Assembly (NCBI RefSeq): GCF_963576615.1
Contig: NC_088708.1
Location: 25,489,191 to 25,553,190 of the forward strand
Reading direction: 5' to 3'
Origin: Watersipora subatra
Taxonomy: Eukaryota > Bryozoa > Gymnolaemata > Cheilostomatida > Watersiporidae
DNA: 64,000 bases
Positions within the stretch are counted from its first letter, which is position 1. Each line of letters begins with the position of its first letter. Of this stretch, positions 11,501 through 62,800 are shown in pieces. Both the position numbers and the translations under genes were made by a program. The notes under the pieces are model-generated. The model searched no databases. It was not told where the DNA came from and worked only from the letters and a program-made list of their open reading frames with translations.

Positions 11501-14500
11501 TCGTCGTTGTAATGCTGTCACTTTCAGCACTGATATTTTATAACTTACCGTAAAAAATCGTTTAATTTTAACCTTAGCTCGAAGGAGTACATATCATTGT
11601 CTGATAAACATGTCGAGCCTGTTGGTCACCTGTGATAACCGAAAAATGCTGCAGAAATTATTCGCGCTGTTTGGCAGGAAGTTTGGGTCACATGATCAGA
11701 TTACGACTAGACGATTAGACCAAGCCGAAACAAAACTGTAAAGTAGCGAGCATCTATATTTGATACGAGGTCTTCGGTAAAACCCGAAGAGTTTGTCATA
11801 AACTAGTGCTACGGAGAAGTTTTATATTTAGCCTTTTATTGGAATTTCAATTCACGTGAGAACATCACATGTCAAAACAATAGTCAAATGGAATGACTAC
11901 GTCAGAGAAATAAACTGATTCCAATCTACGGCGGTTTCGTGATGGCGGCGATTAACTGTTTGTTTTTGAGCTTTTAATCACATTTCCACATATTTTGCAC
12001 CTACAACACAACAGAGTAAGACATGGTGAATCTTTTGATAACAAATAACTGTAATGTGAATTTTGTTGCAAGTAAACCTTTAAAACTCTCTAATTAGGTG
12101 GAGTAAATGGGCACTAACAATAATTGTCAGGTCAAGAGAAGGCTGTTGAAATTAATTTCTACCATAAACCAGAATAGTAAGTTGAGCAAACTTGTGTCCA
12201 GAATTAAATCACTGAACCAGAAGCATCGAAACTGCCAGGCACAGCAACTACTAAGTAATAAGCAGTAGGAGAGTATAAGCAGGACAAATTGAGCCACACA
12301 CGGCAACTTGCTGTAAGTGAAAGATAATTGAAGCACATATGTCTGAAGTACCGGACAATGATGGGTTTCAGCTGAGATGGGGAAACAGAAAAAAATTGCT
12401 GCTATAAAAGAAAGAAATTTAAAATAAGTTCAATGCTTCCTATCCGAAGCCAGGGTGATCATTTTGCCTGGCATTTCACTGGGAGGGTTGAGGATTTCTG
12501 AGAAACACTTGACAAGTACAAACCTAGAGCTAGTTGGATCATTCATGACGGTCAATCATGACACTGGAATAAAATCAGAAATTAAGAAAATGTTCTGATA
12601 AAAAAAACAAGACACTACAGAAAGACTTTCATTACAACATTCAGATCTTAAGGGTGGTTGACTAACAGTGAAGAGACTGGCTACATGCAAGAACGTTGAC
12701 TACACCCAGTACATAATACCTGGGTCACAAGTAGATATGTTGATTACACCTTGTATATATAAGCTACAAGAAGTATTTTGGTTACATGTAGATATGCGAT
12801 TAAAGGAGGAAACAAAAAGTTTTATGAGATAAAAACTAAGATACAGAACAGTGCAGAGCTACATGGATTACAGAGTGGCAGTTGTATCACGATAATCCCA
12901 CAAGTGATGTATTTTAATATTTGAATTCAACTGTAAAATATTTGACAGCATAATTAAAAGGCCAAGGAAATATCAATGAAACGTTTAACTATAGGTAAGA
13001 CAACTCTTAAAGCATATGAACTGATAGTTTTAGGAATGTGAAAAACCAAAACAAAACAGTTTCAGGATGAGAATTGATGATTAAAATAGAAAATCAATGC
13101 ACATAAATATCATGTGAAGCTCTATGCACTTCAATTGCTGTAATTTAAAGTATCCAGGGGTTTGGTGACGTGAATATTAACAAGACTATACAAAGTATTT
13201 ACTCAAGTAGCAACGGAAAATAAAATTAAAATAAAAAGCCATCTATAAGATAATATTGAAAATCACATATTTTACTTACGATCATGATAAGAGTTGCTGC
13301 TGTTATACCGTGAGCTTGGAATACTTTCCTTGGTTTCAGCTACAGCAAAGTATAAAAATATGAACAGTGAGAGCTGCGGATAATATACACGGATATGCTT
13401 AACAATACTTTAGTGTGAAACTGCATGTAAAAGTATCTCAGTAAAAATGCAACGGGGAGAAATGCTATGAGCTTAAATTAAATACACTATTGTACATGCA
13501 AATAAAGTATACTATATTATACAGACCTAAACACTCACTGTATATAAGGTATACTATATTATACAGACATGGATATTCACTGTATATAAAGTATACTATA
13601 TTATACGGACATGAATACTCACTGTATATAAGGTATACTATATTATACAGACATGAATACTCACTGTATATAAAGTATACTATATTATACAGACATGGAT
13701 ACTCACTGTATATAAAGTATACTATATTATACAGACATGAATACTCACTGTATAAAAGTAGACTATATTATACATAGATGAACACTCACCATATATGAAG
13801 TAGACTATATTATACAGAGATGAACACTCACCATATATGAAGTGAATTATATTATACAGAGATGAACACTCACCATATGTGAAGCAGACTATATTATACA
13901 TAGATGAACACTCACCATATATGAAGTAGACTATATTATACATAGATGAACACTCACCATATATGAAGTGAATTATATTATACAGAGATGCACACTCTCC
14001 ATATATGAAGCAGACTATATTATACATAGATGAACACTCACCATATATGAAGTAGACTATATTATACAGAGATGAACACTCACCATAGATGAAGTAGACT
14101 ATATTATAGAGAGATGAACACTCATCATATATGAAGTAGACTATATTATAGAGAGATGAACACTCCCCATATATGAAGCAGACTATATTATAGAGAGATG
14201 AACACTCACCATATATGAAGCAGACTATATTATAGAGGAAGTTAGACATGAGCACCCAGTAAACTGCTGCAGCACCTAGCAATGCCACAAATGAGAACAT
14301 TACTGATGATATTTCACCAATCCGTCCCAGATATTCTTTACAGACATCAGAGAATTCCAACACTTGACCAGCTTTGCTAGCTACAAGTACAATGTGTCTT
14401 ACCAAGTCAACATGCCCACCAAAACTTTGAAATTCTAAATTTGCAAAAGTTGGTCTTTATCTGATATCTATCGATGATTGCCATATTAAATGAAGAAACT

Positions 14501-17239
14501 GACCAATACCATTTCATCGCCAACAACAGAACTAACTGTAACAAGAGTAAAAAGGAAATATGAAAGGTCACATTAGTAGATATATCAAACATGGGCACTA
14601 TAAAAGGCAACTAACATGTTTAAGAAATAACAAAACATTTAATAGCAAAGTTCCATATCTCTGCCTCTCACATAATGACAGCTACAGCAAGTGTTCTAAT
14701 ATGTTCCTTTCAAACCATCCAACTGCTATGCTTTAAGATCAAATTATAGTACCCAACACTGATTCAATAGAAAGACAGAGGCAGCAACGCATAACAGGAA
14801 CCAACTAAAACAATTACAAAATGCCACAAAGCAAACTCTATGTTAATCCTCCATCTACCCTCACTTGGACGCATGTACTCACACACTCATGCATAAGTAG
14901 TTAGTATTACTCTATCAGTACTTCAATAGCACAAACTGTCCAAAACGCACGACCAAAGACAAGTGTGATGGTCAAAGGCCACCAACCTATAGTGTCCACA
15001 GAATTCATCACTCTATAGGAAGTGTAGAGGGTTAGCAAGGCCATCAGAATCAATAGAAAAACTCCGAGGGCAAAACCAGCTTGTTCAATGGCCCAAGGCA
15101 TGCTAAGCAATGAGGTTCCCATCATAGTGTTCCATATGCTGAAACTGTAAGTAACACATACAACACTGTGAGGGGTTGCTTAGTATGAATACAAAAAACA
15201 TGTCAAGGTAAAACGATTAACAATATTATTAATGTAAGAATTCCCATTTGCAAATTATAGTTCTTATTTCTTTTCAAAACGTCTGCTAATGAGATTGTTA
15301 AATGTGACATTAAAATCAATAATGACATAATATTATTACAAAACTTTCTCATAATCAAATGACGAGACTACCTGCTACTAGCTGACAGTGCTTACTGTCA
15401 TCCACCATCTACTAGCTGACAGTGTTTACTGTCATCCACCTGCTACTAGCTGATAGTGCTTACTGCCATCCACCTGCTACGAGCTGACAGTGCTTACTGT
15501 CATCCAACACAACTTATGCCATTCTGTATATTTGTATAGTGTTGAATTCTGAGACTGTCCTATTAAATTCCTATTTGTTTCCGCAAATGTGTTAGAGGTT
15601 TCAAAATCTTGCGTAAACTTTGCCCAGCATATTTGTATTTACCCTTCCACGAATATGACAAACATCATTTTCTATTCCCTGACACCAACACACTACATCT
15701 ACTGTCGTATGTTTCAGTTTATGAACTCTCTGTTACTACAACCTTCAATTCACTATCCCGACTCCTCCTCAATACTATTAGATTACCAACTTTTAAAACA
15801 CTTTTTTTTCAACTCGCTCAAAAATTCCTGATTTCTGTTTTTTCTAGTTTGGCGTGTCATAAAAACACATGATTTTGTTGAACATTGCTAATGTCAATAA
15901 AATGTTATACAAGCATTAGAACAATAAAGGCTCCTACAGTTTTACATTAGTTAAAACTCACAGATAATATATTAACATGCTACTTAAGAAACAGAGGGAT
16001 CATTTTAATCTGATCGATAACAGTGACAATGTTTGCCGCTGATGACATGTTAAACTGTTTGACATGTTGAACTGTTTGCCATGTTGAACTGTTTGCCATG
16101 TTGAACTGTTTGAAATAATAATATAAAAAAGGGTTAAATAGAAGTCAGTGCTAATATTTTTGGTAGTCAACAAAGACGTCATTTGGTCAGTTTTGCAATA
16201 GCCTTTCATACCAATTTTTGTCATAGCCGTTCTATGCTAATTTTTCCAACCAAATAAAAACTAGCACTTCATTGCCACTAATGAATAATAGAAGAGACAT
16301 AAAAATGCTTGAACAACTGAAATGGCAACCATAGAGGTACACATACATAGTGACAAGGCTGCCCTGCTTTCCCTCTGATGTAACTGGCACATGTGTCCAC
16401 AACTCCGCAGGAAGAACGTGATCAGGAATAGCCTAAAACAAGTTATGAGCAGAGATAACGGCTAATGTAACAGCAAAGTAAATATACTAATGTAACAGCA
16501 AAGTAAATATAACGACTAGGGCTAGATAAGTAAATATACCAATCTATTCTTCTCATTAGTAAACTACAAACTCTGGTCAACAGCAAAAACACTGATTGAA
16601 AACAAAATTTAAAAAATAGACACTTGATGACTGTTGACAACTCTGTGTCATATCATTGTACGAGTCATGAAAGGTAACTGACACTTGTTGGCTGTGCACA
16701 TCTCTGTGTCATGTATGAGACATGAAAAGTAACCAAGTGTAGTAGAATTTGGGAAAATCCATCAAGCAGGGATGTACTGAAACTGCAAGAACAAAAATAA
16801 GCTAGCAAACTTGCCATAGGATTGTCCGGATGTGCTGCCAGCCTGCAATAGTACTTGTATCTGCTGACCACAGCAGCATTTCTAATGCTGTCCTCATTGT
16901 ATGAATCATGGTTGATGGATGTGTGCACAAAGGGTCTCCTGTTCAAAGTAATCTGAGGTAGTTGTAAGTTTTCAATGGGAATCAGCACAACATTAACTGA
17001 GTCATTTCACACAATCTACACACCGAGATAAAATTGGATTCATGGTTGCTAGCTTTGTTTTTCAATTATGAAGTTATTCGAATGCTTGATATAGTCATCT
17101 GCAATATACTGCAAAATATCAGACTGTTAAAACTAGTTTGTACTCACCTAGAACCACTCCGATTAAGGTTAGTGGAAGAAGATGATGATGTCAAAGAGGA
17201 TGATAAAAGGGGTGAAGATTCGCTGACTCTCTCAACCAT
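2598..17239 (-). CDS. SLC38A9: SLC38A9-type lysosomal amino-acid transporter (13 exons, complete)
   Basis: Coding exons, in order: 17239-17148, 16938-16815, 16432-16341, 15138-14987, 14380-14210, 13339-13280, 10705-10460, 9723-9631, 9414-9308, 8633-8526, 7774-7626, 4472-4383, 2769-2598. They join in phase to 551 residues; human SLC38A9 has 561. The family is an 11-TM transporter on the lysosome that reports luminal arginine to mTORC1 through Rag-Ragulator. The cytosolic N-terminus holds a dileucine-type sorting signal (ESSPLL, residues 7-12). Segments aligning with the human Rag-Ragulator contact region are RRPF (31-34), KYYCRL (59-64) and IPDHVLP (74-80). TM1 carries WNTMMGTS (105-112), the family substrate-site signature. 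The TM3-TM4 luminal loop has N-glycosylation sequons NSS, NCT and NGT. An in-frame TAA nine bases before the ATG supports this start. Introns hold MITEs and five or more minisatellites. Confidence 0.95.
3303..4262. repeat. 21-bp minisatellite in SLC38A9 intron 12
   Basis: About 45 copies of a 21-bp unit (TTAAAGTACTCAGTCTATGAG) fill much of the last intron. Variants with GATAAAG or CTAAGAG recur in the same order several times, so multi-unit blocks have been copied. The minus strand is open for 188 codons of a repeating LSTLTHR heptad because the unit length is a multiple of three; this is not evidence of a protein. Confidence 0.97.
4745..5335. repeat. 25-bp minisatellite in SLC38A9 intron 11
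   Basis: About 23 copies of a 25-bp unit (CATGATACATGTGTATACTG then CCATA) with scattered substitutions. It is almost entirely short palindromes such as ACATGTGT/ATACATG. The overlapping long reading frames here follow from the repeat. Confidence 0.95.
6385..6775. repeat. 28-bp minisatellite in SLC38A9 intron 11
   Basis: About 14 copies of a 28-bp unit around GTCAAATTTTCATATTTATG. It ends just before the hAT-type MITE whose target duplication begins at 6788. Confidence 0.93.
6796..7532. mobile_element. hAT-type MITE (737 bp) with 8-bp target duplication
   Basis: The left end is CAGAGGTAGGCAACCTGCGG; the right end, reversed, is CAGGGTTCGGCAACCTTTTT. These imperfect terminal inverted repeats share GGCAACCT. 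Both sides are flanked by ATCTAGCT (6788-6795 and 7533-7540), an 8-bp duplication as hAT elements make. No transposase frame is present, so it is non-autonomous. It lies in SLC38A9 intron 11. Confidence 0.9.
11181..12080. mobile_element. Long-TIR MITE (about 900 bp) in SLC38A9 intron 6
   Basis: The ends are inverted copies of each other over roughly 150 bp. They start AGGTTTACTTGCAACAA and extend inward through TTACATTACAGTTATTTG to CGCCGCCATCAC. No coding frame is seen between them. The target duplication is not clear, so the superfamily is unassigned. A shorter relative lies at 34681-34894. Confidence 0.85.
13495..14245. repeat. 42-bp minisatellite made of the SLC38A9 exon 5 splice donor
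   Basis: About 17 copies of a 42-bp unit. On the minus strand each unit carries the last coding bases of exon 5 (CTATAATATAGTCTGCTTC, then ATATATG) followed by the donor GTGAGTGTTCAT. The copy at 14210/14209 is taken as the true exon end because it is the first donor and agrees with the SLC38A9 alignment. Several other copies keep an intact GGTGAGT. Others have lost it: TGGGGAGT near 14168, TGATGAGT near 14126, TGGAGAGT near 14000. The unit is 14 codons, and the exon 5 frame stays open through most of the array. Units left of about 13760 form a diverged subfamily. Confidence 0.95.
15370..15507. repeat. 34-bp tandem repeat in SLC38A9 intron 3
   Basis: Four copies of a 34-bp unit around GCTACTAGCTGACAGTGC, with CTGACAGT and ACTGTCAT forming short inverted pairs within each unit. 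Confidence 0.9.
16035..16110. repeat. 18-bp tandem repeat in SLC38A9 intron 3
   Basis: Four copies of TGTTGAACTGTTTGCCAT with minor changes. Confidence 0.85.
16433..16814 (-). other. GC-AG intron (SLC38A9 intron 2)
   Basis: The donor reads ATG|GCAAGT on the minus strand and the acceptor TTTTAG|GCT. GCAAGT is the usual context of a GC donor. It is the only choice that keeps phase 0 and joins HPDNPM to [10 protein letters not shown] as in the family. No GT donor nearby gives an acceptable join. Confidence 0.8.
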
Positions 17240-18303
17240 GATTTTTTATTTCAATTTAGCCTCAAGTCCCTACTAAAAAGGTACACACATGAATTCTACA
17301 AGCATTTCAAAATGCAAAAATTGAAAATGTTGTTTCCAGACTGACTTGAAACAATGAATTAAAACTCATAACAACATAAATCAGTGTTTCAAGATTGACT
17401 TACGAGCTTTATCACATAAGAAAACTTTACTGATAGCTCGCTATAAATAAGTTGATAGCTGTAACATACATGGTACTGAACACTTATTTAGTATATAATG
17501 GTGTCCGGTAAATAATTAAAAGTGGTGATTCAGTAACAGTCTGATAACTGTCAGTAACCACAACAACTGGGCCCAGAATGCTTCTGATTTTTCTAGAGCG
17601 GCTCAGACTTTTTATGTTTGCCGGATTGATATATTCTTTTCTTTATTGATATTTTCTTGTCTTGAAGCAATAAATTTAGCAACTACAGCCAGAACAAAAT
17701 CCAAAAAGGAACTGCTGTCATGCTGAATGCATAATCTAACGATAGTCAACATATTTCCTATTTTGTCTTATCAGCACTTAGCTAAAATCATAATAATTAT
17801 ACAGTTTAATTATTTATCTTCCAATGTGTCATTTACCATGTTACATTTGAACAAATAATTAATAGATATTAAAGGTTAGGCCATTTCATGGTTAATAGTT
17901 GATTGTTTTATGAAATTTCCATGAAATGTATTATGCCTTCCTTGTTACCTCTTTTGGTTCAGTAAAAGGATAAATGGCCCATTTAGTATTGTAACAAATG
18001 TTCTTAGTTAAGTGTATGTAGTATGGGTAAGTTTATAATAATGTCTAAACTGCTATAGGGTAAAATGCACAGAATGAATTTTAGTACATATGGTAAAAGG
18101 TAAATCAGAAAACCAGCGAAAGCTGTTGGCTAGGTTGGTATGATTTGGTCAAGATTGTACATCCTTAAACATGTATTTCCTTACAAACTTTTGAATTGAA
18201 GCATTGAGCTGCTAATTCAGTAGTTTTTATGTTACCTTCAAGAGATTTTGAACAAATAATACTGTGAAAGATGTAAGGACAAATGATTTTCAATTATTGT
18301 TGA
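17240..18303. other. Region upstream of SLC38A9, no gene seen
   Basis: AT-rich sequence that should hold the SLC38A9 promoter and any 5' untranslated exon. I cannot identify a convincing core promoter by eye. Confidence 0.4.
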
Positions 18304-18627
18304 AAAGCATATACTGATTGAATGTAGATATGAACAAAGCATATACTGATTGAATGTAGATATGAACAAAGCATATACTGATTGAATGTAGATATGAACA
18401 AAGCATATACTGATTGAATGTAGATATGAACAAAGCATATACTGATTGAATGTAGATATGAACAAAGCATATACTGATTGAATGTAGATATGAACAAAGC
18501 ATATACTGATTGAATGTAGATATGAACAAAGCATATACTGATTGAATGTAGATATGAACAAAGCATATACTGATTGAATGTAGATATGAACAAAGCATAT
18601 ACTGATTGAATGTAGATATGAACAAAG
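18304..18627. repeat. Near-perfect 32-bp minisatellite, 10 copies
   Basis: Ten copies of a 32-bp unit (GCATATACTGATTGAATGTA then GATATGAACAAA), identical as far as I can read. The homogeneity points to recent expansion or strong gene conversion. The long minus-strand reading frames here are artefacts: one 96-bp triple unit is open in all three frames. Confidence 0.97.
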
Positions 18628-18844
18628 AATTTAATTGTACAAAAACATTTAAAGTGCACCTCAAAAGTAAATCAAAGTTTTCAAAAATTAAAGCCGCCGC
18701 CCTTTTTATCCTTTTTCGCATCAGCTCTGCTTTTAGCTACTAAATGTTGACAGCCACAAACAACCGTACGCTTTGAAGCATTAAGGAACTGACAAGCAGC
18801 AACTCAAGGGAAAAGCAACTCACATTCACTTATAAAGTAATATA

Positions 18845-18960
18845 CAGTAACACCTCGTCTTATGTCCTATGATCACTTCAACATACGAGTTGTTCGACTT
18901 ATCGTGTTTCTCTAGAGATCAAGAATTTTCCAACATATAGCAACAAAATTTTTTTAAAAC
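18845..18960. mobile_element. Mariner-like MITE end (fragment)
   Basis: TACAGTAACACCTCGTCTTA, then CAACATACGAGTTGTTCGAC, resembles the end of the mariner-type MITE at 36148-36856 (TACAGTCATACTTCGACATA). I did not find a matching opposite end nearby, so only one terminus is supported. Confidence 0.4.
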
Positions 18961-20743
18961 AATGCAGTTTTATAAATAGGTACATATGTACGCAGTGTTC
19001 CTTCACATAATTAAGTTATGCAGTTGTCAAATAATGTCAAACAGCAGTTCATACTGATCGTTTTTAGCTATACAATCGTAAATACCAAAAAAATAGTGGT
19101 AGTAGTAATAGCAGTAGATAAAAGGCGAAACCTTTTTTAGAATTAAACCAGCAATAATATAAGTATACGCACAAAATATTCGGATAAATTTTAAAAAAAA
19201 TTATTTAGCCTCTAACTGCAATTCAATTAAACTACATTTAAAAAAAATGTGAGACCATTTTTGAGAGGCCACTTTCGTGAGATCATTTTTGAGAGGCCAT
19301 TTTTGTGACGCTCGAAAAGTGTCAGACTATTTTCAACAGCTTTAAGAAGACCTGATAGAGCTGCAAGAGCAGTTAAAAACATGTAAGTAAGAGGTTAGCA
19401 TAGTTGACCATGATCTGAGCCAAACCACCATTTCATCAAGTGAAAACTGATCTAGCGCCGTGTGTGATATCTCTGACAGCCATCAAAATCCTAAATACTA
19501 AAGATTTGGACTATTCCAGTCAGTAGAGAGCTAAGCATCATGCATTGTTGGAAAAGTTTAAACCAGGTCAAAAAATGTTCTGATTGTGAATTACTAGAAT
19601 TCACAACAAGTTTATTTCGTATAAACTGTACCATATTCAGTGCAAAAATGAAGTACAATATGTGTAATAATCACTGACAATTGTCCACAAACTACTGGCT
19701 TCACAAAAAGATTCGTGACTAGCGGCAGCTAGGTTGGCAGCATAGAGCTAAGATGAAGCTTGAGGAGAACTGCGATTGTTGTAACAGTGCATCTTGATTA
19801 AATAAGAATAGACATGGGCAATCATTTTGGAGGAAGTTATAAAAAAAAACAAACAAAAAAAGCATAGTAAACACAACAAAAATTCGCAAAAGTATCGACA
19901 GCTAGCAGTCGATGAGCAGTGTTAGCGACTTTTGCAGCCGATTAAACTTGAGATTTGTAAAGAAATAAAAATTTTGAGTTACAGTTGAATGGAAGCTTTT
20001 CTAGCAAAGATCAGAGCTGACTCGGATTAAAAGAGGAGGTAGTTCTAGAAGCCTGACTGATCATTCAAAATGTCAAATTTTTTCTTAGAATCTTGATCAA
20101 TGCAAAAACCACCGAGTAGAACATTAGCTGGACTCCAACTTTAAAGTGACTAGCAAAAAGTGACCTGGAGTGTGGAGATGACTGATAAACGCACTGGAGG
20201 TACATATGTGAACAACGGTGACAGACAAAAAAGACTTTTATAGAGGGTAAGCATTGTTAACAGTAGCAATCAATTTTGTGAACATATCTATTTTGTATAA
20301 TAACCTAAGGCAATAGGTAGGCATTGTTTTATACCATCCAATCCATGCACTGGCAGTTGATGTTTTACCACAAGTGTGAGTGACAGTCCTTCCAGTAGCC
20401 TCCATATCAACTAAGAATATCTTGTAAATTTCATTTGCCTGATCAGTTTCTTACCAAGCAGCAAACACAATTTGAGTAAATCTATTTGACCTTAAAGAAA
20501 TAGCGAACACATGAAAAATTAGGAAATTGATTACGGGTTAGGATTGATCAGGATATGATGGTGATTGGTTATTTCCTTTGTGTACGCTAAAGTTAGTATT
20601 TTATGCTACCACTAAAAAGCGTCTAATGCTGGGATGTTCTTGTGAAATATGCAGTAGCTAGACAAGTTGGCTAATCACCAGTTACACCATCAGATGAGGA
20701 ATAAATATTGGCAATACAACAAAACTGCCAGAGATCTGCGAAG
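18961..20743. other. Gene-poor stretch
   Basis: No exon or complete element recognised. A 33-bp two-copy repeat (GAGATCATTTTTGAGAGGCC) lies near 19250-19320. Confidence 0.4.
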
Positions 20744-20751
20744 TGCTAAAG

Positions 20752-23443: not shown

Positions 23444-23451
23444 TGCTAAAG

Positions 23452-24604: not shown

Positions 24605-24612
24605 GTTGAGAG

Positions 24613-38200: not shown

Positions 38201-41200
38201 ATTCTTACTCCTGTTCATAATATATACCCACAGTTCCTTGAGTGGTATCTCCTACATCAGTTGCTCCAAGATGAGTGTTAAGGCTGGATGTTATTAACTG
38301 TAAAACACGGTGTAGTCATTTTATCACTACTACTGTGCTTTCCCATTTCCTGCTAGTAGGGGTATGCTTATCAAGTACAGGAAATGAGTTTGGATTCTAA
38401 TCACTGACCTCTTCAGAATTATAGATTTGTCGTCTTGCAGTGTGTGGAGTGCACGATGATACGCAGATAACTTAACCGTGTAGGCCTGGTTGGCAGTGCG
38501 TAGGTGTACACCTCTTAAGGCATTACAAACCGCTACACGATATCTTCATAAATAATTAATGCTTATAGGCTACAATAATTGGCTGCTGGCTAAATAGTTA
38601 AGTTTTTGATGAATACAAAAAGTGATTCTAGTGAATTTGTACGTCATCTTCTAATCTATAGAGTAATTACTGGGTACATTACATATTATTTAAGGATGTG
38701 TGTAGGCCTGAACGATTGTTCATTATGTACTTCCCTCAACTATAAGTATTTTTCACGTGTACCCCAGAGAAGTACGTTAAAGAATCTGAGGGCACCATGA
38801 AGGTAAATAAGCTGTTTTTATATAGCCAGGGTAGCAGGCTGCTCAGGTCTCATTCTCCTGTAATATTGGTCTTCATCTATGCTCCATACCTGTAGAGAGT
38901 GTCATTTATCTATGCTCCATACCTGTAGAGAGTGTCATTCATCTATGCTCCATACCTGTAGAGAGTGTCATTCATCTATGCTCCATACCTGTAGAGAGTG
39001 TCATTCACCTATGCTCCATACCTGTAGAGAATGTCAGAAGATGGTAGAGTGTAGGAATAAGAGCAATCTGATTGGCTATGAGCATTTTGTCAGTGGAGTC
39101 AGAATGGGAATCGGCACTTTCAATCTCGTAAGTTGAATGCATTATAGAGAATTGATGTCTACAGGTGGGCAACCTGTGTGCATACCTCTGAACAATCACT
39201 TTGGAGATTTAGAACCAGTATTTTGAAGTGTTTATGATATTCAGTTTGAGTCATGTTTTGTAGATGATTTCACAATTGCCTAATAGAGTCCTGAAGCTCT
39301 TGGAATTTGTTGGCTTTTCTGGTAACCGGGTGAGTTTATAAGCTGACAATAAGATTGAATCAGCTGGCAGCAGGTGTGAGTTTTTGAGCTCATAGCTGGT
39401 GTGAGTTTGTGTGCTCGTAGTGGGTGTGAGTTTGTGGGCTTGTAGCTGGTGTGAGTTTGTGTGCTTGTAGCAGGTGTGAGGTTGTGTGCTCATAGCAGGT
39501 GTGAGGTTGTGTGCTCGTAGCCGGTGTGAGGTTGTGTGCTCGTAGTAGGTGTGAGTTTGTGGGCTTGTAGCTGGTGTGAGTTTGTGTGCTTGTAGCAGGT
39601 GTGAGGTTGTGTGCTCATAGCAGGTGTGAGGTTGTGTGCTCGTAGCCGGTGTGAGGTTGTGTTCTCGAAGCAGGTGTGAGGTTGTGTGCTTGTAGCAGGT
39701 GTGAGGTTGCATGCTCGTAGCAAGTGTGAGGTTGTGTGCTCGTAGCAAGTGTGAGGTTGTGCGCTCGTAGCAGGTGTGAGGTTGTGTGCTCTGTTACTTA
39801 CGATGCAGTCTTATAACCGGAAAAGAGGGCGAGAGCTCTGTATGGAGTGATTTTTGTACACCTATATGACAGTCTTTAAGCATGATAACTAGCCTTTACA
39901 TGTGATAACCATTAGTTATGACTAGGGCAATAGTGCAGCTCTGCACTACAATATTTCAGTCATGTTTATCCAGAATATGATAATAAGAGATGTTAATAAT
40001 ATTGTATGCGTTTATCCGTAATGCGCAAACACTATTAGTCAACATGCGCGAATAGTACATTTACAAGGAAATGGAATTCATAGTAAAAAGTTTTCTACTT
40101 GTTCATAGAATTTTACTCGCAACATAACCCTTTGTAACTAATTCATACATTACGTCATGCATAATGTATAATTCTAGTTTGTCCAAAATAGGTATTTAGC
40201 ACAGCTATATGTTATGGTCTGAGACTCTTAGACTTTCCCCCCTACCACCGTAACATCCTGGCTATCATAAATCATTGTATGAGAGTCATCTCCTCATGAA
40301 CTCAATTGTATTCTATTCTTTTTGTAATAGCTGCTTTGCTGAATATTCATTGCGAATTTTATATTTCTGACTATTAATATGCATTGCGACTAAATTATCA
40401 TTAACTGCCATCGGGTGGGTGAAACATGCAATAAGTTTGTGTTCCAACTCTGATGCTTCATTATTCTCCAGAATAGTTAGCTTAATTCAATGCCGAAAGC
40501 AAGCTGTTGCTAACCACAGTAAACCAAATACAAGAACAAAAATTATTTTTATTGCTTTATATTTAGTTTAATGCAAGCAGATATTGCATTGTTTTAGTAT
40601 TATCTTAATACCTGTCATTTAAGGAAGTTCAAGTAAAATATTTTTTGTAGGGAGTAGGGCTAAGGGAACTCAGACTTGGATCGGACAATCTGAAGTCACT
40701 ACGAGGGCCCCTCTGCTCTCTAATACTCCTCACTTATAACACACTCATCACCTATATACTTGGTTAGTTTTGTGGATTGTTTAAAATGCACAGAACATTA
40801 AAAAAAGGCAACTGGAAAAACATAGAATCACGTCTAAGTATCGAGGTCTGGTTATAGCATATAGTGTTTGCTATCCTACATGGCCAGATGTAGCTCAGGG
40901 TCACCTCAACCATGTGCATAAATCATTGTCAGTTCCATGAGAAAACAACTGCGACATTTACACTGAAGAAGTTGTCCAGTGCATCCTAAGCACAAGCTGG
41001 TACAGTGTGCTGACAAGGACATGTGGCCAAAGGGAGGGGATAATTAGCCTCAAGTGTAGCAACACAACCTCCTGGACTGCTACTACTATAAATGCACCAG
41101 GTTGAAATGTTGTATTACAAGATATCTGTTTCTTTCCTCAGGGACAGGAGAGGGAGACATAGACGCTTGCAGTGTGATAATTAAACCCTGCATAGAGGCC

Positions 41201-48466: not shown

Positions 48467-48522
48467 GTGACATTTGTTATCATTATGACAATACATAAAA
48501 AATTTATATGCAAAAGTAAAGA

Positions 48523-51500: not shown

Positions 51501-54500
51501 CCTAGTAAGTTTTCAGAATATTTCATAACATTATACATATTTCATATGTATAACGTAATTCTTATAAGAGTTTATCATAAAAAGATTGATTAATTCTGGC
51601 AAGGTTTCGCCTATCAGAGCTATAAAGATGAATGATCACAAATATCAAACTCAGCCAATAAATATACAACTAAAACCCTTGGTAATGTCATAAACATCAA
51701 TCTAAGTCAATATTTATTAATCGGCCACAAATCGAGTGGCCTAAAGCCATTTCCTAATGTTTAAATCTAAAGGGAGGCAAATATAACAAGACAACCAACA
51801 GATAGCAGAAATTAGTATAATGGTAATTATTAGCCGTAGGTGACCTTACCGTATTCATTGGCTAAAGCCTCTTTTATACCTTCAAATCTTTCCATTTCTG
51901 CTATGCTTACAAAGGATAAGGCAGCACCCTGGTTTTCACCTCTTGCTGTCCTGCAACATCACAATCCATTAATTTGTTGAGTTGTAGCCATCAGAAATCA
52001 TAAACAGCTAAATGGTCTTCTTAATAAAAACACTTAATGTATAATGGCTCATTTAATCCAAGTTCTAAAAAGGGAAGACAACTTCTGACATGGAACCATC
52101 TACATGTAATGCAGCAAAAGCTGAGTGAAGGATTTATTAGTTGTGATTTGTACGAGTAACACTGTAGGAATAACACTAAAGGTGTCACCATATTGTATGT
52201 CCTGTGAATGAGCTAAACATAACATTTACAGATGTAAGTCTACCTACACAAATCGGCAATATCAATGATTTAGACAACATCAGAAATAGAATAGAGCCCA
52301 AGATATATTACCTGCCAACTCGGTGTATATATTCCTCAGGTGTGGAGGGAAAGTCAAAGTTTATTACATTAGAAACAAACTGGAAATCTATTCCACGGGC
52401 GACTCCGTATTCTGTGTCCTTCCTGTGTGACTTGGAGCGTACCTTCTTGCCTTTGTTTACGGGTTTACTAGAAGCACTTGAATCGAGCTTACTCTCATCT
52501 GATGCTATGATGATGTCATACATCCCCGTGTTGAACTGATCGACTATGTGACACCTATGATATCAAGCACTGATCGACTATGTGACACCTATGATATCAA
52601 GCACTGATCGACTATGTGACACCTATGATATCAAGCACTGATCAACTATGTGACACCTATGATATCAAGCACTGATCGACTATGTGACACCTATGATATC
52701 AAGCACTGATCGACTATGTGACACCTATGATATCAAGCACTGATCGACTATGTGACACCTATGATATCAAGCACTGATCGACTATGTGACACCTATGATA
52801 TCAAGCACTGATCGACTATGTGACACCCATGATATCAAGCCATATTTCATGATTATGCTAGGTATCCCTTAGACAGAATCTACATGTATAACAATATTGG
52901 AAACAGCAAAGAGCAGTAAAAACATAATTAAGAATTATTTCTACACACAGAACATGTTTTCTCTATTCAAAAAAACTATAAAATACGCAAGTCTTTCAAC
53001 TAAAAGAAAATAACATATAGATCAACCTTTCAGCCAAATAATTCTGAGGCGTAAATGTATTTTCTTTACAGAAAGACAGTCATATTTGCATTTTTGTCTA
53101 ATTCTTATTTATAACGTGATATTCTAATCATAGCAAAAAATAGTCTTTTGACAATTACAATTATGTCCCAGGATATTGCACTACCTATGTTTCCTTATAT
53201 TCACCTCAAAACAGTCATGACTTGAAGACTGTTGAAAGGTTGTCTAAAAAAGAGGCAAGTGTTTAATATAAAACATCATGTCAGCTTTTAAACCCTCCAG
53301 CAGCGCTTGATTAGCACATAAAATAAAACGAACATAGTTCAAACATTTATCGTTACATCTCAGGTTTAAAAGCGTTCACTATATCAGTTATATTAATATG
53401 GTATCAATTATATTAATATGATATCAGTTATATTAATATGATATCAATTATATTAATATGGTATCAATTATATTAATATGATATCAATTATATTAATATG
53501 ATATCAATTATATTAATATGGTATCATTTATATTAATATGATATCAATTACATTAATATGGTATCAACTATATTAATATGATACCAATTATATTAATATG
53601 ATATCAATTATATTAATATAATATAAATTATATTAATATGATATCAATTGTAATAGAACAACCAAACTAATGTAAATAAACATCCTGCCTACTAGAGATC
53701 GAGTCTATGGAACTGAATGGATGGTCACACAGTCAAAAAAGATGCAAGAGTAACAGAGGCATTGCAGTGAGTAAACAACTCCTAACCTTCTCAGTCATGT
53801 CAGACCAATAGCAGACAAATCTGAACTAGATGCTCAATGTTATACTGATTTTTACAAGCTTAAAAACCCCGAAACCATTATATTGGCTAAATGTTAGATA
53901 ACAATCATCGTACGAACAACACAGCAATTTATACCGCACAGCTGTTGTCCCCTTTTCATCTAATGATAATACGGCTAGGGGCTGTTGACTAGAGAATAAC
54001 TCTTCCCCTGATAATGACTAATCAGTAATGACCATGTGTCATTTATACTAGTAACTAACTAGAAGTATCATACGCTATTGTGCCCATAATAATAATAATA
54101 TTATGAAAATTATTAACTTCATAGCATTAGTCTTCTAGCATGCCTCACAAATTTGCCAGGCTGACAAACACAAATTTCATGGATTTTGACAGTCTAACAA
54201 AACATGAGTCCATAAATAAAATCACGCCTAACAATGTCTACTGATTTATGGTTGTTAAATTAAACATCTCGAAAGAGAAACAACTTTTAAAGACTTTTGT
54301 TCTAGCGCTAAAAAAAAGCTCACACAAGTTTTGTTCATAAAGGTCATATGGGTAGTCTAAACTCTAGCTACCATCATTGCAATACAGTATGATGTCATCC
54401 CGAGTTGATTGTCAGGTACATAATTGGTGCTATATCCTGTGAGTCGTATTGTTATGAACAAATCAACAGACACAGTGCATAGAAAAAGGGTGACACAATT

Positions 54501-57500
54501 ACTAAACAGATATATCACTTAATTTAATTATTAATATCAGCTAAAAACCTATATAGCCCTCATCAGCTGTTCTTCATCTCCTAGATGAGATATGAGCAAT
54601 CGTATCTCTAAGAAAAGGCTGACAACATAATTTATACTTACATATACTTATACCTAAGCCATTGGCAGTCCACCCTATACGCTTACCTGCTGTTTATAGG
54701 CAGCTCTGGATTGAGAACACAAGCCATGATTCCCACATGGCCAAGGAAGAGTTTCAACCTGTTGAATATAGTGTACTATACGCGCAAGACAAGACTCTAG
54801 TTATTGTATGATAATGACAGCTGAGACAAGACTATCAACATGATTATGGACATGGAGGTACTATTGGTTTTATGAAACATTCAGAGCCTGGTGTGAAATG
54901 CTAAGATCACCTCAACTGAATGTCAGTTGAAGTACTAACAATATAACTAGTAGTTACTAACTGTCCTGTGAACACTGGTTATCCTCACGTAATATGATCT
55001 CATTTACTATGTGAAAATTATATGTAATTTAACATAGTGATTCAATTAGAAAATATTGTTGACGAGCATTACAGGATAATTCAAACAGAAAAACTGTCAT
55101 AGAGGAATACACTCCATTTTAAGCATTTAGCTGCCAACGTCGTTTATTCGTACCACCTGTACATCAGCCGCAATTACACTTATACACCCAAAGACTATAT
55201 GTATATTGACAATTAGGTAAAAACTAGTTATAATAATATAAATTATTATAACTAGTAGGAATTATGAATTAAAAAAACCGATTTGCAAAAAGAATAAAAT
55301 TGTTCAAAAATCAATTACTTAATGTATTTTGCAAACTTTATAAAAATATTTTGTTTAGCCTGCCAGCTGTTAAACAAGCTCTTTCATCAAACTACCTTGG
55401 TATATTCTTAAACATCTACTATGACTATAAAGCCAGCATTAATTTAACTTACATTGTCAATAAAAAATACTAAAAAGTGAAATATTGCAGCTATCTGTTG
55501 AATTTTTTCATAATATATTGAAGTAGATATTCCGTATATATTGGTCGCCATCAGAAAGCACTTTTATAGAAGTTTCAGTAGTACATTACTATTGTCTACA
55601 TATTCTTTAATAAACTCATGTCAGTTTAATTTGACTAAATAACTAGTGTACACAAACAGCTCTAGAACAAACCTAAAATATAGTTCGGTGAGGTAAAAGG
55701 TAAGACCTACTTGTAACATCTATCGACAGAGCTGACAAAAACCAGAGATTTGCCGCAGATAAGATTGAGCTTCACCAGTGTGTACAGCAACAGAAATTTA
55801 TCCTCATCTTCACACCTGCAGCAGATCATGAATAAGAATTTCATGTACTGTCTAGTATGCACAGAAGAAAATTGTGCCACTAAAGAACTGAGTATAGTGG
55901 CCTACTTGATATGATACTGTGTAAGCTGAGAAGCGTCAGGTAAACTAGTTTCCTCCAGTTTCACTGTGACCGGGTTGTGCAGCACCATTCGCTTTATTGA
56001 CTTGACGTCAGGGCTCAGAGTGGCAGACATGAGCAGCGCCTGGTAGATTTTTGGTAAATGCCTGCAACAGTGATAAAAGTCACAATAATAAACACACAAA
56101 TGAAGCAATTCACAAATGCCACTTTTAAATTTAAAATTTCCAAACCGAGACTAATAGAGTATTTGGCAATAAAAAAGATTGATACATCAGAAGATGAGCA
56201 GGAGCACAGCCATACATTGTCGTCAAGCCAGCTAGGAAGAATAACAATTGATTGATACAAATGATTACTATAAAATTGGAAGAGCGATGCTGCCAAAAAC
56301 AAGTAGAGCTGACAGAGCGAAGTCGATACTGAAATGTTGATCCAAAAAAGTTGCCACAAATGAGCCGGTTAAGAGAAGCCGTTGATACTGTGCAAGTGCC
56401 ATGAATGAATATTACAATTTGTATAGCATTACAACATCAATATTTTGGAAGACTCCGTTACAACATCAATATTTTGGAAGACTCACCTAACTTTGCTCAT
56501 AAACAATGGCTAATCATGATCGTTCCTAAACGTTAATATTTAGTGAGAGGACATTACCATGTTGCAAATTGTAATATTCGTTTTCTCCTTGAGTGTCCCA
56601 TTAACTAACTTTACAAGAGGCCTTACCAGTTATAAATAACATGGTAGTTTAATATCAAAGATGCGCTAGAGAACTCAGTCTAGTCTGTGGTAAAAAAACA
56701 AATGCTGAAATAAAATTGAAATGTTTTAATATCTTTAAATTTTTAATATATTATAGCAAATGGCAAAGGAACATTCTCTGACACACTGAGTCATTTCTAT
56801 GATGAAGCAAATCGTCACTTACTAATGGGAGTTTTCGAAATATTGTAAATGTAATAAATAAAAATAGTCAGAAATTCAGTGAGGAACCAATCATTCACGT
56901 GGGAGAGCCTCACAAAAAGCAAATAAACTTACAATAAAAGGCGGCAGCAGCCATAAATTGGTAGCAAACTTTAGCTAGTCAGCATAGGCATCAGATATTC
57001 ATATTTAATACTTAGCAACATGCTTGTTAGGAGCAACAAGCTCCATATCTCTATCTCCATGTTTAAAATCTGGGGAACTCACGTAAGTAACTGTTTCATG
57101 TCTGTATCATAGCCAAAGGAGAAGACGAGATCTGCTTCATCTACAACAACCATCTCCAGGGAGTCCTTGAGTTGCATGTTGCCAGCCTTCAGGTGGGCAA
57201 GCACCCTGCTCGGTGTGCCTATGACCACATCAGGCTGGTCCATCAGCAGAGCTCTGTCAATTTAATAACAGACCGGCAATTGACCTCACCTTGTTAAGGC
57301 TCAAACTCTGGCCTCCCACCATGACAGAAGGCGCAGTGAACAAATTAGCAGCTATAAGTTGTAATGTGTCAGTCTTACCTTACAGAGTTGGTGTGTACTG
57401 GCCACAAGGAAAGGTGTGTGTCTTATATATTCTAATAGATGCAGCAACTTTAATCAAATGAAAAATTACTTAATTTGACTTTGACTTCTCCTTTCAACAA

Positions 57501-58675
57501 CACAGAGGGAATCGGATCGCGGGCAAACAGACAAAAAGGCTGCCAATAGAAAACTTATCGAGAAGTAAATCCCGAAGATGACAGACAACCTTAGCCTATG
57601 CACCCTCAATTGCATAGAGTAATGCGAAAAATGAAACTAAATGCTAAAACTCTATAACTAAATTGGTGTCGTGAGATGGTTTAGTGAAATTCCAACAGTA
57701 TGGATAGCCTAACCAAGCTTGACAGATTAAGCTACCCACAATTCATTATAAGATAGGTTTCATACTGTGTTCTATATAAGTGACTATACTAGACTAAATG
57801 ACTGACTGAAATAGTCCAGCATTTGATATAAGCAATGAGTCATGAGCAGACAACTTGTAATGACTTCAAACAAATGTCCTTCAAGTTTCAAAAGCCAGAC
57901 TTGTATCTGATAAACAGCTTCATCACAGTTTCCATAGTTACAGCTTTATCACAGTTTCCATAGTTACAGGACAGTAAATAAAGCTACAGAGTATGTAAAC
58001 CTGCACAGGTACAAATGAGAACCAAACAGCAAAGAAGCAAACAGCTTGCCGACACAAGCTACACAAGAGTTTATGCAGAGATGACATTTAACTGTACATG
58101 AAAATGTACAGAGATGTTAGGGTATGTAAACTTGCTCAGCAAGATAATAACTAGATTAAATAAAAAAAAGTGAAGCCCTAAGCAGAGCTCATCATGTGAG
58201 ATCACGGGCTATATTTATGTGATTTAACTTCTTTGTAAAGCGTTGTTCATGACAACTAACAGCCAAGGTAATTTGTGCACATGATAATTTTATGTATCAC
58301 CCATAACATATAGGTCAACAATTGGATTTTTCACACACCTCTTAAAACCACGAGTTTATACAAGCAACCAATAAAATGGTTAGATGGGAACATGAAACAT
58401 GATCGTTGCGATGTATTCATAAGCCACGTGATGACTCAGTAGATCACATGAATTCCTGCTATCTGCGAAAGGAAAAGCATGGCTACAGACACTACGCTGA
58501 CTGGTCAAATACATGCAAAACTAATCCATAAAGCAAAAACCTACAGATACAGAGTGCTTGGAATAACAGCAAAAAAAGTACGACTTTGATTAAATAGACT
58601 ATCTTACTTCTGAGAAGCAAGGGTCGGAGATATGTCAAGGCCTCGGATCTCCTGGGAACAGTACGCAGACAGCAG
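48523..58675 (-). CDS. DDX56: DDX56 (Dbp9) DEAD-box RNA helicase, 5' end missing
   Basis: Coding exons seen: 58675-58608, 57253-57083, 56061-55906, 55815-55711, 54758-54687, 52554-52312, 51950-51850, 51266-51193, 51095-51006, 50221-50116, 49875-49775, 48609-48523. They join in phase to 457 residues plus stop; human DDX56 has 547. The family is an ATP-dependent RNA helicase of the nucleolus needed for large-subunit ribosome assembly. Visible motifs, in order: GTPSR (Ib), VVDEAD (II), MSAT (III), KSLVFV (IV), GVARGIDF (V), HRVGRTARG (VI, split by an intron). The charged insert between IIIASDE and GVARGIDF is a DDX56 trait, as are [23 protein letters not shown], and a Lys-rich tail ([14 protein letters not shown]) that may serve nuclear import. 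Q motif, Walker A and motif Ia are not in the window. The 52554 acceptor is confirmed by the join [10 protein letters not shown]. Confidence 0.95.
52538..52843. repeat. 34-bp minisatellite made of a DDX56 splice acceptor
   Basis: Nine nearly identical 34-bp units beginning at 52538, 52572, 52606, 52640, 52674, 52708, 52742, 52776 and 52810. On the minus strand each reads AGTGCTTGATATCATAG|GTG then TCACATAGTCGATC: the acceptor plus the first 17 bases of the exon. The copy nearest the exon is the true junction (52555/52554). Because 34 is not a multiple of three, most upstream acceptors would shift the frame. Confidence 0.96.
53385..53650. repeat. 20-bp AT-rich minisatellite in a DDX56 intron
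   Basis: About 13 copies of ATATCAATTATATTAATATG with single-base variants. It lies in the same intron as the 34-bp array. Confidence 0.95.
55223..55256. repeat. Perfect AT-rich hairpin in a DDX56 intron
   Basis: ACTAGTTATAATAAT and its exact reverse complement flank a 4-base ATAA loop. Confidence 0.9.
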
Positions 58676-59575
58676 CTGCAAGTAATAAATAGAACGAGGC
58701 ACATGAGTGCATGAAGATATGACAAATAATTCATTCATCATGTAGCAAAAACACAACTCACCAATTACACCAATAGACCTTTTTCCTCACATAAATTTCC
58801 CCCATTGCTATATTGGAGTTGTCTTCTTTAAAAGGGTAAACTTTGTTAGCATTGAATAGAAGAATATGATATAACAGCTTGTAACCATCAGTCTAGTATT
58901 CAGATGCTCTTAATGCTGCAGCAGACCATACAGCTTTTGGTTGTGGAAAATATGCACAAATAATATTGAACGCTAGATTTTGCATCGTTAGAATATTCAG
59001 CAAAATGTTTGCAAAAATGCCCTGGCCTAGCTGCATATATCAGCTGAAAGAAAAATCAACAACTTAGCCATCAAAGAAAACACATCAGGCTCACAAGTTC
59101 TTCTAGTATAGATAGTTCATCAATGGGCGCGCTGCGCTGGGTAACTAACTAAGAAATAACCACTATGTGGTATCTGGTACTATCGTTCAGACATCCAACA
59201 TTGTTAGCACTTGCTAATTCAGCCTGTAATGTGATTATTGTCTCTCGATGTACCACATGCCAATTGAAAGAAAAGTCGAAAAATTAACTTCTGGCCGAGA
59301 TGCACCAATTCACTATTTCTTTCAGTACTAGTTTACCTTGTTTATATGTGGTTAATGAGGTAAACATTTATTGCATAAGTGCACTAATAAACCTAAACCA
59401 TTTTCTCGTTGAAACTTGGCTATAATATCGATTCAATTTTGTACAGTGCAATCTATGTTTGGCAGCTGCTATAGTATTTTGTTATCTGCCAGTCATCCAA
59501 AATTATTAGCACTTGCTAGTTAGTTTGTTTGTGATCATTGTCACTCCATGTACCATTAGTGCAACAACAAAAATA
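58676..59575. other. Intron or spacer between DDX56 exons and the THAP element
   Basis: No exon recognised. Two diverged copies of a segment (about 59155-59260 and 59455-59560) share TTAGCACTTGCTA and CGATGTACCA/CCATGTACCA. The second ends at the start of the THAP reading frame. They could be a duplicated 5' end of that element. Confidence 0.4.
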
Positions 59576-61134
59576 ATGCCAAAAGAATCTTGTGCTGTGC
59601 ACAAATGTACAAACAACACGACGAAGCTATTGCAACACAAAAAAGAAATCTGTAGAGTTCATCAAACATTGCAAGGTGTGTATGTAGTATTTCCAGCTAT
59701 TTTTTAATATTCTACTTGTAATCAAAATTTCAATATTGTCTAGAAATCGTTTACATAATATGCTATATATTTTTATATTTCTATATTATTAATTGTCAAC
59801 TTTTTAGCTTAATTTTAAATTTAATTTCGATAAATAGATAGTGCCAGAGTTATGAAATATTCCTTATCTTTTGTTGATTAGTTAGTGCATATGAGAGTGT
59901 GACAGTGCCCTGTAAAGGTGCCATTCTAGCATGTTAAGCCTTTTTGTCATTAAGCTGTTCAGCCTTTAGAGTTAATATATGTGTATTTTTTACATTCCAT
60001 CGATGTAGCATTGTCATGACTAGCATGGAATTTCGACACATAGCATATGGTTGACCTTTTTTATTTAGAGTATCAAACGAAACAACTATAATAAAAAATA
60101 ACTACTTCAAACCTTTTGGCAGCGTATGTCATCATTGTTTGACAAGTTGTTATGGCGAAAAGCTCTTTTAAAAGAACTAGAATAGGTAAATGTACTTAAC
60201 CTTGTTAATTCTTATACCTAATGCTGCGGGACCTAGCCAAAGGTTATGCATAACAGATAATTTGTATAGTTTCATCTTCAGTAAAAGTTTAAATCTCGCT
60301 CACTGTCAAGTCTTCGTAATAATTTATCTCTTTAGCATTTGCAGTTATGATATTAACTAACGATGTTATGAAAACGGTCTATATTTTTAGTTAGTTAGAG
60401 TTAGAGTTAGTTTACCTTTTTGGTCACCGAAACAATGAAATAAAATAGGTTGACATATAATTATTTGAAAAAACATTTAAAATTAAACTGATAAGTTTTG
60501 AGTGTTTTGGGATGCTTGTTGTGCAGTAAGTAAAAATTCTTCTCTGATATTAGGTTCGCATATGCTGTATAAGTCAGTACTTATTGCATATTGTGCATAT
60601 TTTGCTTACTCTGTACTTTATGTTTATCATATATTTTTCTTTTTCTTTTATACAGGTTCATGTGGGTGCCCTTTACCATTTACTCATTTTAAATTTCCTG
60701 TCGACTGTAAAAGACGAGCACAATGGAAATCCTTAGTCAATCGAAAGACATCTTCTAAAAAGTCTGGTCTCCTTCAAAATATTCTGTTATCTGCAGTAAA
60801 CATTTCATTGATGGTGCCCCAACAATAATGAATCCATTACCTACGTTACACATGGGCTATTCTCTGTGCAGTATTCCACCGCAAGGCAGAGTCCCAAATG
60901 CATTAGTGGCTACAGATAAACATTTTCCTATAATTGATGATGGCAATAAGTCGGATGCCTCTGGTGAAGACTGGCTAGAAGTAACTGGAAGCGCTTCCCA
61001 TTGTGATAGACAAGACTCGCCGATTGAAATAGCACCAGCTGAACCTGAATTTACGACACCTTTCATCTCAAGATGTTTGAGTAAAAAGTTGAAATCTCTG
61101 CAAGGGCGATACTTTAATCAAACACTTGCTTTAA

Positions 61135-62207
61135 CTCATTCGCACCCGACGAATTTTTAGGCGATTAGCCCCAGATACCGCTAATTTTTCAGAAAATTGT
61201 CGTAATTCAAATTACTACTACAGGAGACAGACTTGAGATAATTTATTCAATCAAATTTCAAAAGAACCAACCAAGTCTCCTTTTTCAAAATATATCACAT
61301 TCATATAGACACCTTTTATCCCTTTTATGTAGATCCGTGCCTCAAAGAACGTAGTTTCAGGACATTTCCAATTTTGAAAAAATTGTCATTTGCTGAAACA
61401 AAGTTAGATTTGCACCATAAAAATTACAAAATATACAAAGTTTGACTGAAATTACTCATTTATTACAGACAATACATTTTTATGATTATTATTTGTACAT
61501 ATGCAGTTAGTCATGAACATGAAAATCATGAACCTCTAACTTCGAACTTTTCCTCTCGAGCATCATCCTTCAAACAAAATCATAGCAAATCTATATGCCA
61601 ATATAACTCAAATAAAATATCATGAAAATGTTTCAAATAATAAAAACATGTTCAATAACTCTGTTCTTGACTTTTCAGACTTTATAGACAGCTCTAAGAA
61701 CCAATATGATCCTATCGAAACTGAAAGATAACGTTAGTCCGACTACGGCTGGCAGCGTGAAGAGTGCATTTTTATTCGAGCATAACGATTCAAATTGGCA
61801 AAAGTAAAAGCTAATAAAAACTTTGAAACACTAAAAATAATGTTTTGATTTGATTTATGCAGTCTTTCAATGTCTTACCACTTCTGAATCTGCATATTTA
61901 CATCTTGAATTGAAAAAAAATTATCACGAACGATAAAATTTCAAGTCGGCATGATGATTTCCGGTTTGGGTAGAAACTGAGATGGGTGTACTAATTTGGT
62001 TATAACTGTCGCCGGAGACGTCATAGAGGCATATTTTAAAGTTTGTCGGATTGGCCAGAAATTTTTCTTTCTAACTAATCAAAAATATTCTTTTATAGTT
62101 GAAAAATAACGATGCGAGTTGGCAAATTTCAGACGCGAGTTAACTCGCGTTGGGTGCATAGCAACGTTATAAATATGCGAGTTAACTCGCGCCTGGGTGC
62201 GAATGAG
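61135..62207. mobile_element. TTAA-flanked non-autonomous element nested in the transposase
   Basis: Perfect 13-bp terminal inverted repeats, CTCATTCGCACCC (61135-61147) and GGGTGCGAATGAG (62195-62207), sit between TTAA (61131-61134) and TTAA (62208-62211). Removing the element with one TTAA rejoins the frame as LALRRKMNQ. TTAA targeting is typical of piggyBac-type elements. No transposase frame lies inside. Near the right end the palindrome GCGAGTTAACTCGC occurs twice, each time followed by GGGTGC. Confidence 0.9.
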
Positions 62208-62710
62208 TTAAGAAGAAAGATGAATCAGCTAAAACTTTACACCCAGCCCAAATATAAACAAATTCTGAAATATGGTAAGGACAGTGTTTTCGATACTGGG
62301 ATTCCAAAATTGGAACTTTTTCATAGCTTATGTGAATGTGCTGCAAAAACGAGAAAAAAAGGTTCAAACACTCCATCTAGAAATGCTGTAGCTGCACTGT
62401 TGAGGGCAAAGTATAAAGGCTTTACTACTTTTACTTCCATGCGCTGTCACCAAACAAAGTTGTGTATTGCTGATGACATTCTGCTCACATTAATGAAACT
62501 ACGACTGGGCCTCCTACATAAGGACCTAGTTGACAGGTAGATATATCTCTGGCAGTTTCCTTTGGTGTACGGGAAGAGAGAGGGTGGGTGTGATTTGCCA
62601 ATGTCAACAATAACCTGTTTCATTATAGCTAAATGGCCACAGTGGAGCTGCCAAAACTACTCTAACCTAACTGTTTCAATATATATTTAGTATATACCTA
62701 GCTCCACCTC

Positions 62711-62800
62711 TTTATACTTTTAGGTTTGAAATCTCACCAAAGGAAGTTACTCCTCTTTATACTTTTAGGTTTGAAATCTCACCAAAGGAAGTTACTCGCA
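62711..62800. repeat. 45-bp tandem duplication across a transposase splice acceptor
   Basis: Units 62711-62755 and 62756-62800 are identical except at the last bases. Each holds TTTATACTTTTAG|GTTTGAA and the first exonic codons. Either acceptor keeps the frame; the second gives the expected DRFEIS join, the first would insert 15 residues. Confidence 0.93.

Follow-up and report, generated by a model that had tools for sequence, protein, structure and literature searches.

In the genome of the cheilostome bryozoan Watersipora subatra, the exon's own splice site was found within the repeat unit of eight tandem arrays, four of which lie in the window, i.e., the whole stretch of 64,000 nt that was analysed (G000:C1:25489191-25553190). 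These junction arrays are real and recur in unrelated genes, and a human gene offers an example of the same kind. Both donors and acceptors are affected, the duplicated segments cross the boundary and carry splice signals, and the units, 10-60 bp long and present in several near-identical copies (copy match 81-100% by TRF), differ from each other in sequence. We consider the arrays to be probably ordinary minisatellites that happen to straddle exon-intron junctions in a minisatellite-rich genome, one intact junction being left in place each time.

The genome note for W. subatra reports an assembly of 783.70 Mb in 11 chromosomes, obtained from PacBio HiFi reads and accompanied by poly(A) RNA-seq (PMC12902671). 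Besides the window, the analysis covered 25 loci of 10 kb each from elsewhere in the genome, chosen around protein-kinase matches, for a total sample of 314 kb. TRF returned 42 rows in the window, which were merged into 32 arrays with a period of at least 10, while the whole sample contained 126 merged arrays accounting for 7.5% of the sequence; the noncoding arrays held 8.4% of the noncoding bases. A self-written gene finder (GHMM with codon usage, splice-site matrices and exon chaining) was trained on the kinase matches and on window exons read by hand and was run on all 314 kb. As the seed set contained the exons beside the SLC38A9, TTC39 and DDX56 junctions, the agreement of the gene finder at these sites is not independent. 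The resulting set, derived from our own gene model, comprised 296 predicted junctions, 79 in the window and 217 in the other loci. Fourteen predicted exons covered by arrays for more than 40% of their length were dropped (seven belonged to the MELK array and two to L025, the window and L031 contributed one each, and the remainder were coding repeats of L017, L024 and L032). Two entries were added by hand, the L031 exon with the acceptor at 721 and the transposase acceptor, both of which increase the observed count.

An earlier note on this DNA had proposed that arrays in three unrelated genes are built from units spanning a splice junction, and all three proposals were borne out. In SLC38A9, a 42-bp array of about 17 copies (13505..14234, minus strand; TRF) occupies about 81% of an 870-bp intron, and its unit spans the exon 5 donor. 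Exon 5 (14210..14380, minus strand), supported by our gene model, by alignment with PDB 6c08 and by annotated proteins, has its last base at 14210 in the context ATATATG/GTGAGT (here and below the slash marks the boundary) and its last 25 bases inside the array. These bases encode NIVCFIY-, to be compared with SIVQFIY and SIVCFIY in the paralogues P0122 and P0134, respectively. The next exon (13280..13339, minus strand) occurs in the annotated protein P0121 and is absent from our own gene model; P0121 carries the residues of both sides of the junction, joined via the exon-proximal donor. According to our matrices, seven of the 16 other copies score at least as high as the used donor, and GT is lost in the two copies closest to it. 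Use of a decoy would add 14-residue units, the frame being open over about 11 copies. A separate 27-bp array in an SLC38A9 intron (8244-8331) repeats on the minus strand a pyrimidine-rich stretch with CAG, an acceptor-like arrangement, about 200 bp from the nearest exon.

The DDX56 acceptor is spanned by the unit of a 34-bp array of nine copies matching at 98% (52535..52840, minus strand; TRF). The corresponding exon (52312..52554, minus strand) was predicted by the GHMM as a seed exon, aligns with DEAD-box proteins and is contained in P0241; its first base, 52554, lies in the context ATCATAG/GTGTCAC, and its first 20 bases belong to the array. The annotated P0241 reads across the junction as spliced at the exon-proximal copy. 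Seven of the eight other copies score at least as high as the used acceptor, again with our own matrices, AG is lost in the farthest copy, and stop codons occur in all three frames of the array. A dispersed element or introner was considered as the source of the DDX56 unit and rejected, all nine matches with at most two mismatches in the 783.7 Mb of the assembly falling inside its own array, in a search that may skip very common words.

The third gene, TTC39, shows a 33-bp array of five copies (38872..39036, plus strand; TRF) whose unit spans the exon 7 acceptor. Exon 7 (39028..39127, plus strand; K/ECQKMVEC...) was supported by the GHMM as a seed exon, by Pfam PF10300 over the spliced protein and by P0001, and starts at 39028 in the context CCTGTAG/AGAATG with nine exon bases inside the array. 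The annotated P0001 contains TCYQSYKECQKMVEC, corresponding to splicing at the exon-proximal copy. None of the four other copies reaches the score of the used site (1.62 vs 1.69), and decoy use would insert 11-residue units. Downstream of exon 8 (39264..39329, plus strand; GHMM seed exon, P0001), whose donor falls between 39329 and 39330, a 25-bp array of about 17 copies was detected (39369..39791, plus strand; TRF). This array had been described as resembling and abutting the exon 8 donor; the likeness stood, but the array starts 39 bp past the donor and neither abuts nor covers it. Its unit agrees with the end of exon 8 plus the donor at 16 of the 20 columns of the alignment (P 0.017 vs shuffled units), and among 338 41-bp pieces of the TTC39 gene outside the array that score was reached only by the donor piece and one other. 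On this likeness, the array is plausibly a diverged descendant of the exon 8 donor.

The fourth spanned junction of the window belongs to a transposase gene, where a two-copy 45-bp duplication covering the acceptor had also been noted. The duplication is exact (62707..62797, plus strand; TRF, sequence and Pfam HTH_Tnp_4) and does cover the acceptor, with AG at 62722-62723 and 62767-62768 and the exon starting at 62769.

Four more spanned junctions were found in the 25 other loci, two of one MELK-like exon and two of a PKG-like kinase. The MELK-like kinase (L030, G000:C3:72988941-72998940, arrays in 1217-4749; PDB match with E of about 1e-106) is the most extreme case seen, a 192-bp exon bearing arrays at both ends, with the acceptor at 1744 and the donor at 1553. 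The acceptor lies in a 38-bp array of 80 copies with 30 exon bases inside, and 55 of the 79 other copies score at least as high as the used site. The donor sits at the outermost end of a 28-bp array with 12 copies, a single exon base being included, and none of the 11 other copies attains the score of the used site. The second kinase (L031), assigned by Pfam to the protein kinases and which we take to be PKG, has its acceptor at 721 in a 58-bp array of nine copies and its donor at 5623 in a two-copy 46-bp duplication. One of the eight other acceptor copies and the single other donor copy score at least as high as the used sites, and the acceptor copy nearest to the used one has no AG. In a further kinase locus (L015:5276-5590, 134-bp unit), the start of the array coincides with the first intron base after the donor; as the array contains no exon base, it was left out of the eight spanned junctions.

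Since the exonic bases of the units encode residues common to other animals or to paralogues in SLC38A9, TTC39, DDX56 and MELK, the exons came first and the arrays were made from their junctions. Short tandem duplications, a few tens of bases long, would arise anywhere, and some happen to straddle an exon-intron boundary, as shown by units that combine conserved coding sequence with intron sequence. A duplication of this kind would be tolerated because one complete junction remains in the surroundings it had before. Viewed from the exon, this is the first copy of a donor or the last copy of an acceptor; it would retain the original exon flank, so that its use would restore the ancestral message, and the copies beyond this exon-proximal one become intron, as shown by the annotated proteins for three genes and presumed for the rest. 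The array might then grow and homogenise by slippage or unequal exchange, to which the close match among copies points. The remaining copies would act as decoys, sometimes perhaps used by the spliceosome. A pool of spare splice sites, as the earlier note had anticipated, does exist, some copies in DDX56, at the MELK acceptor and in SLC38A9 scoring as well as the used site. The loss of GT in the near copies of SLC38A9 and of AG in that of the PKG-like kinase hints at selection against near decoys, in numbers too small for a test. The further suggestion that arrays grow until selection on the exon stops them fits the data, all eight spanning arrays intruding by less than one period, a pattern that the filters against array-filled exons partly build in.

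Among the open-licence papers listed in literature searches, judged by title and abstract start, none was a survey of junction-spanning minisatellites. Tandem arrays or repeats have been linked with introns by Zhuo et al., who in 2007 reportedly described human introns derived from tandem arrays. Among the closest systems is the VNTR in intron 18 of human ABCA7, with a 25-bp unit, about 12 to 427 copies and the exon 18 donor as the first two bases of the array; one isoform keeps exactly one unit because splicing takes place at the following donor, and an isoform without a nucleotide-binding domain increases with expanded alleles (PMC5954066). In W. subatra the repeat units likewise contain the exon's own splice site, and the L015 array starts at its donor in the same manner. 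Unlike in ABCA7, acceptors are affected too, and an array may take in as many as 36 exon bases. For the human gene there are measurements of decoy use, of exon skipping and of length polymorphism, whereas the bryozoan arrays are known from sequence and gene models alone.

Other known cases share single features with these arrays. In a potato RdRp gene, a tandem genomic duplication across an intron-exon boundary, carrying splice signals, made a new intron (PMC4974935); the crossing of the boundary is alike, but the W. subatra cases are mostly multi-copy arrays. Internal tandem repeats detected by TRF at exon-intron boundaries alter splicing in human paralogues (PMC2812944), which are recent segmental duplications with variable repeats, whereas the genes described here are conserved and were seen in one assembly. 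Novel intron positions in Drosophila have been attributed to the sliding of introns or to tandem duplication close to splice sites (PMC2891723). There too gene structure was changed by duplication near splice sites, but the duplications are of coding sequence with a proto-splice site, and the abstract mentions no arrays. Finally, the C. elegans minisatellite CeRep25B is associated with alternative splicing regions (PMC4039745); it is a named repeat over-represented at many places, in contrast to the W. subatra units, each made locally from its gene's own junction. If about one in 40 junctions were embedded in an array, the genome would offer many natural experiments on how the spliceosome chooses among tens of near-identical sites (80 at the MELK-like exon), and the arrays would also inform how much splicing noise an animal tolerates. 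They would matter less if, as seems likely, they are only a by-product of very dense minisatellites.

The frequency expected by chance was calculated by placing each of 121 noncoding arrays with uniform probability within the locus it came from, after exclusion of five arrays lying mostly within coding sequence. More than one period of exon overlap was forbidden, and overlap up to one period was allowed because, after a tandem duplication across a junction, one copy of that junction is still intact. Pooling all loci, eight of 296 junctions were spanned versus 4.04 expected (P 0.053; ratio 2.0, 95% CI 0.86-3.9), so that the twofold point estimate favours some enrichment. The window alone gave 4/79 versus 1.57 (P 0.075), a post hoc figure as the window was picked for these cases, and the 25 independent loci gave 4/217 versus 2.46 (P 0.24). 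Restricting the analysis to arrays of at least three copies returned six spanned junctions versus 2.29 expected (P 0.030), and three versus 1.49 outside the window (P 0.19). The enrichment of arrays at junctions put forward in the earlier note is thus at most modest and not significant in the independent loci, and the frequency of junction arrays is explained by minisatellite density within an error of a factor of about four.

Array edges had also been expected to lie nearer to junctions than random positions, which in the 314-kb sample, with its limited power, was roughly not the case. In a zone reaching 36 bases into the exon and 25 bases into the intron, there were 0.50 edges per kb with 293 junctions and 0.61 with the final 296, as compared with 0.34-0.85 per kb in intron bins from base 26 to 800 and 0.45 overall (73 edges in 163 kb). 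At seven of the 293 junctions the first intron base was already in an array (in six cases the array took in exon bases, in one it abutted), and two arrays began in intron bases 2-25. Array coverage was 2.4% at first intron bases versus the 8.4% of noncoding bases given above.

These data bear on the possibility that junctions are true hotspots, at which tandem duplications start or persist about two- to fourfold more often than elsewhere owing to AG/GT-like sequence or to processes linked with splicing or with the edges of exons, a possibility that we judge unlikely. The pooled ratio and the excess among arrays of at least three copies speak in its favour, as do the L015 array abutting its donor exactly, the TTC39 exon 8 array resembling its donor and the single MELK-like exon hit at both ends; the absence of a clear edge peak at junctions and the result of the independent loci speak against it. 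Units lying away from junctions gave a similarly divided picture. On both strands a donor score of 4 was reached in 3 of 218 such units versus 0.9 expected (P 0.04), and among 58 sense intronic units four reached a score of 3 as acceptors versus 1.4 expected (P 0.04), but no donor excess was present in the latter set (score 2.5 in 0/58 vs 1.5 expected), and none of the other score cuts for donors or acceptors fell below P 0.05.

Splice-like words are over-represented in tandem triples throughout the genome, as a hotspot would predict. Counting matches rather than arrays, with repeat counts being lower bounds, AGGTAAGT gave 3,796 triples (40,052 occurrences) versus 295 (28,856) for the reversed word, a 13-fold difference, and TTTACAGG gave 633 versus 63. 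The word AGTAAGGT, dinucleotide-matched to AGGTAAGT, gave 1,914 (22,306 occurrences) versus 283 (30,640), so that per occurrence it is nearly as frequent in triples (8.6% vs 9.5%), although it is itself partly donor-like. As reversed words are 7-13 times rarer in triples for all three words, including a non-canonical one, composition and large single arrays confound such word searches. In the units of 63 arrays, CAGG, AGGT, GGTG and GGTA were among the most enriched words, up to twofold, and A/T runs were depleted. Words similar to these four also abound in the classical core of human minisatellites.

The genomic surroundings of such arrays were read among the matches listed. One flank was read for 20 of about 24 TTTACAGG arrays, and only two likely cases (L037 and L056) and one possible case (L043, in which a family match is absent) were found at acceptors, which argues against a hotspot; one array (L038) lies about 40 bp from an acceptor, and 16 have no clear exon at the array end. 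In L055, and perhaps in L057, an exon lies more than 100 bp from the end of the array, and L047, the other flank of the L035 array, shows no clear exon. Among three AGGTAAGT arrays from the matches listed, L048 is at a likely donor, L050 is not and L049 was uninformative. The L056 array, retrieved by the genome-wide word searches, is at the acceptor of a FAM91 gene (Pfam, 7e-14). L037 and L048 are probable junction arrays: the former, presumably in ZC2HC1, is indicated by an open frame ending at a donor, with the Pfam scan giving no support, and the latter by an open frame and a donor, with no family match. In L038 (G000:C2:4053720-4054140) the short TTTACAGG array precedes the acceptor of a Per1-like exon (Pfam); its unit resembles this acceptor by eye, and it is perhaps a decayed junction array, like that of TTC39 exon 8.

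A broader proposal combines seeding at junctions two- to fourfold above background with thousands of junctions (2.7%, extrapolated) carrying arrays of live, fast-changing splice sites and with proteins made variable in length by the in-frame SLC38A9 and TTC39 arrays. We regard it as somewhat more doubtful again than a hotspot by itself; if preferential seeding were true, the single ABCA7 case of humans would have a natural counterpart across a whole genome.

A function for the arrays, in which the spare sites would be used alternatively to make protein variants or to regulate the gene, appears to us highly improbable. The multiples of 14 residues that SLC38A9 could gain in an open frame and those of 11 residues in TTC39 are compatible with such a function, and a neighbouring donor copy can indeed be spliced in ABCA7, but there the retained unit leads to an out-of-frame transcript (PMC5954066). 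The unit lengths of 11 junction arrays (42, 33, 34, 45, 38, 28, 58, 46, 41, 43 and 34 bp) include three multiples of three, as by chance, and selection for in-frame units was rejected on this basis. Together with the stops in all frames of the DDX56 array, these lengths leave the role in splice-site choice suggested in the earlier note unsupported, and the missing GT in the two nearest SLC38A9 copies and the missing AG in the nearest PKG-like acceptor copy also argue against functional use.

Exonisation, by which exon ends would derive from pre-existing intronic arrays, would account for the exon bases present in the arrays of the eight counted cases but is hardly credible, as the exon-derived portions can be aligned with proteins of other animals or with paralogues (D..L.TCCGS in MELK, LY.IV.FIY in SLC38A9, YKEC in TTC39), contradicting it for SLC38A9, TTC39 and the MELK-like acceptor, the MELK-like donor with its one exon base being uninformative. 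An artefact of the assembly or of the gene model deserves equally little credence: tandem arrays are hard to assemble, and outside the window the junctions were called by homology and with our own model, but the assembly was made from HiFi reads (PMC12902671), the copies are non-identical in seven of the eight arrays (TRF match below 100%) and annotated proteins cross three of the junctions. Ab initio gene finders may place false exons in junction arrays, as happened with our own finder in L030. The acceptors predicted by this finder (matrix, n=131) prefer TT before a purine and YAG (TTRYAG), and their upstream pyrimidine tract is weak.
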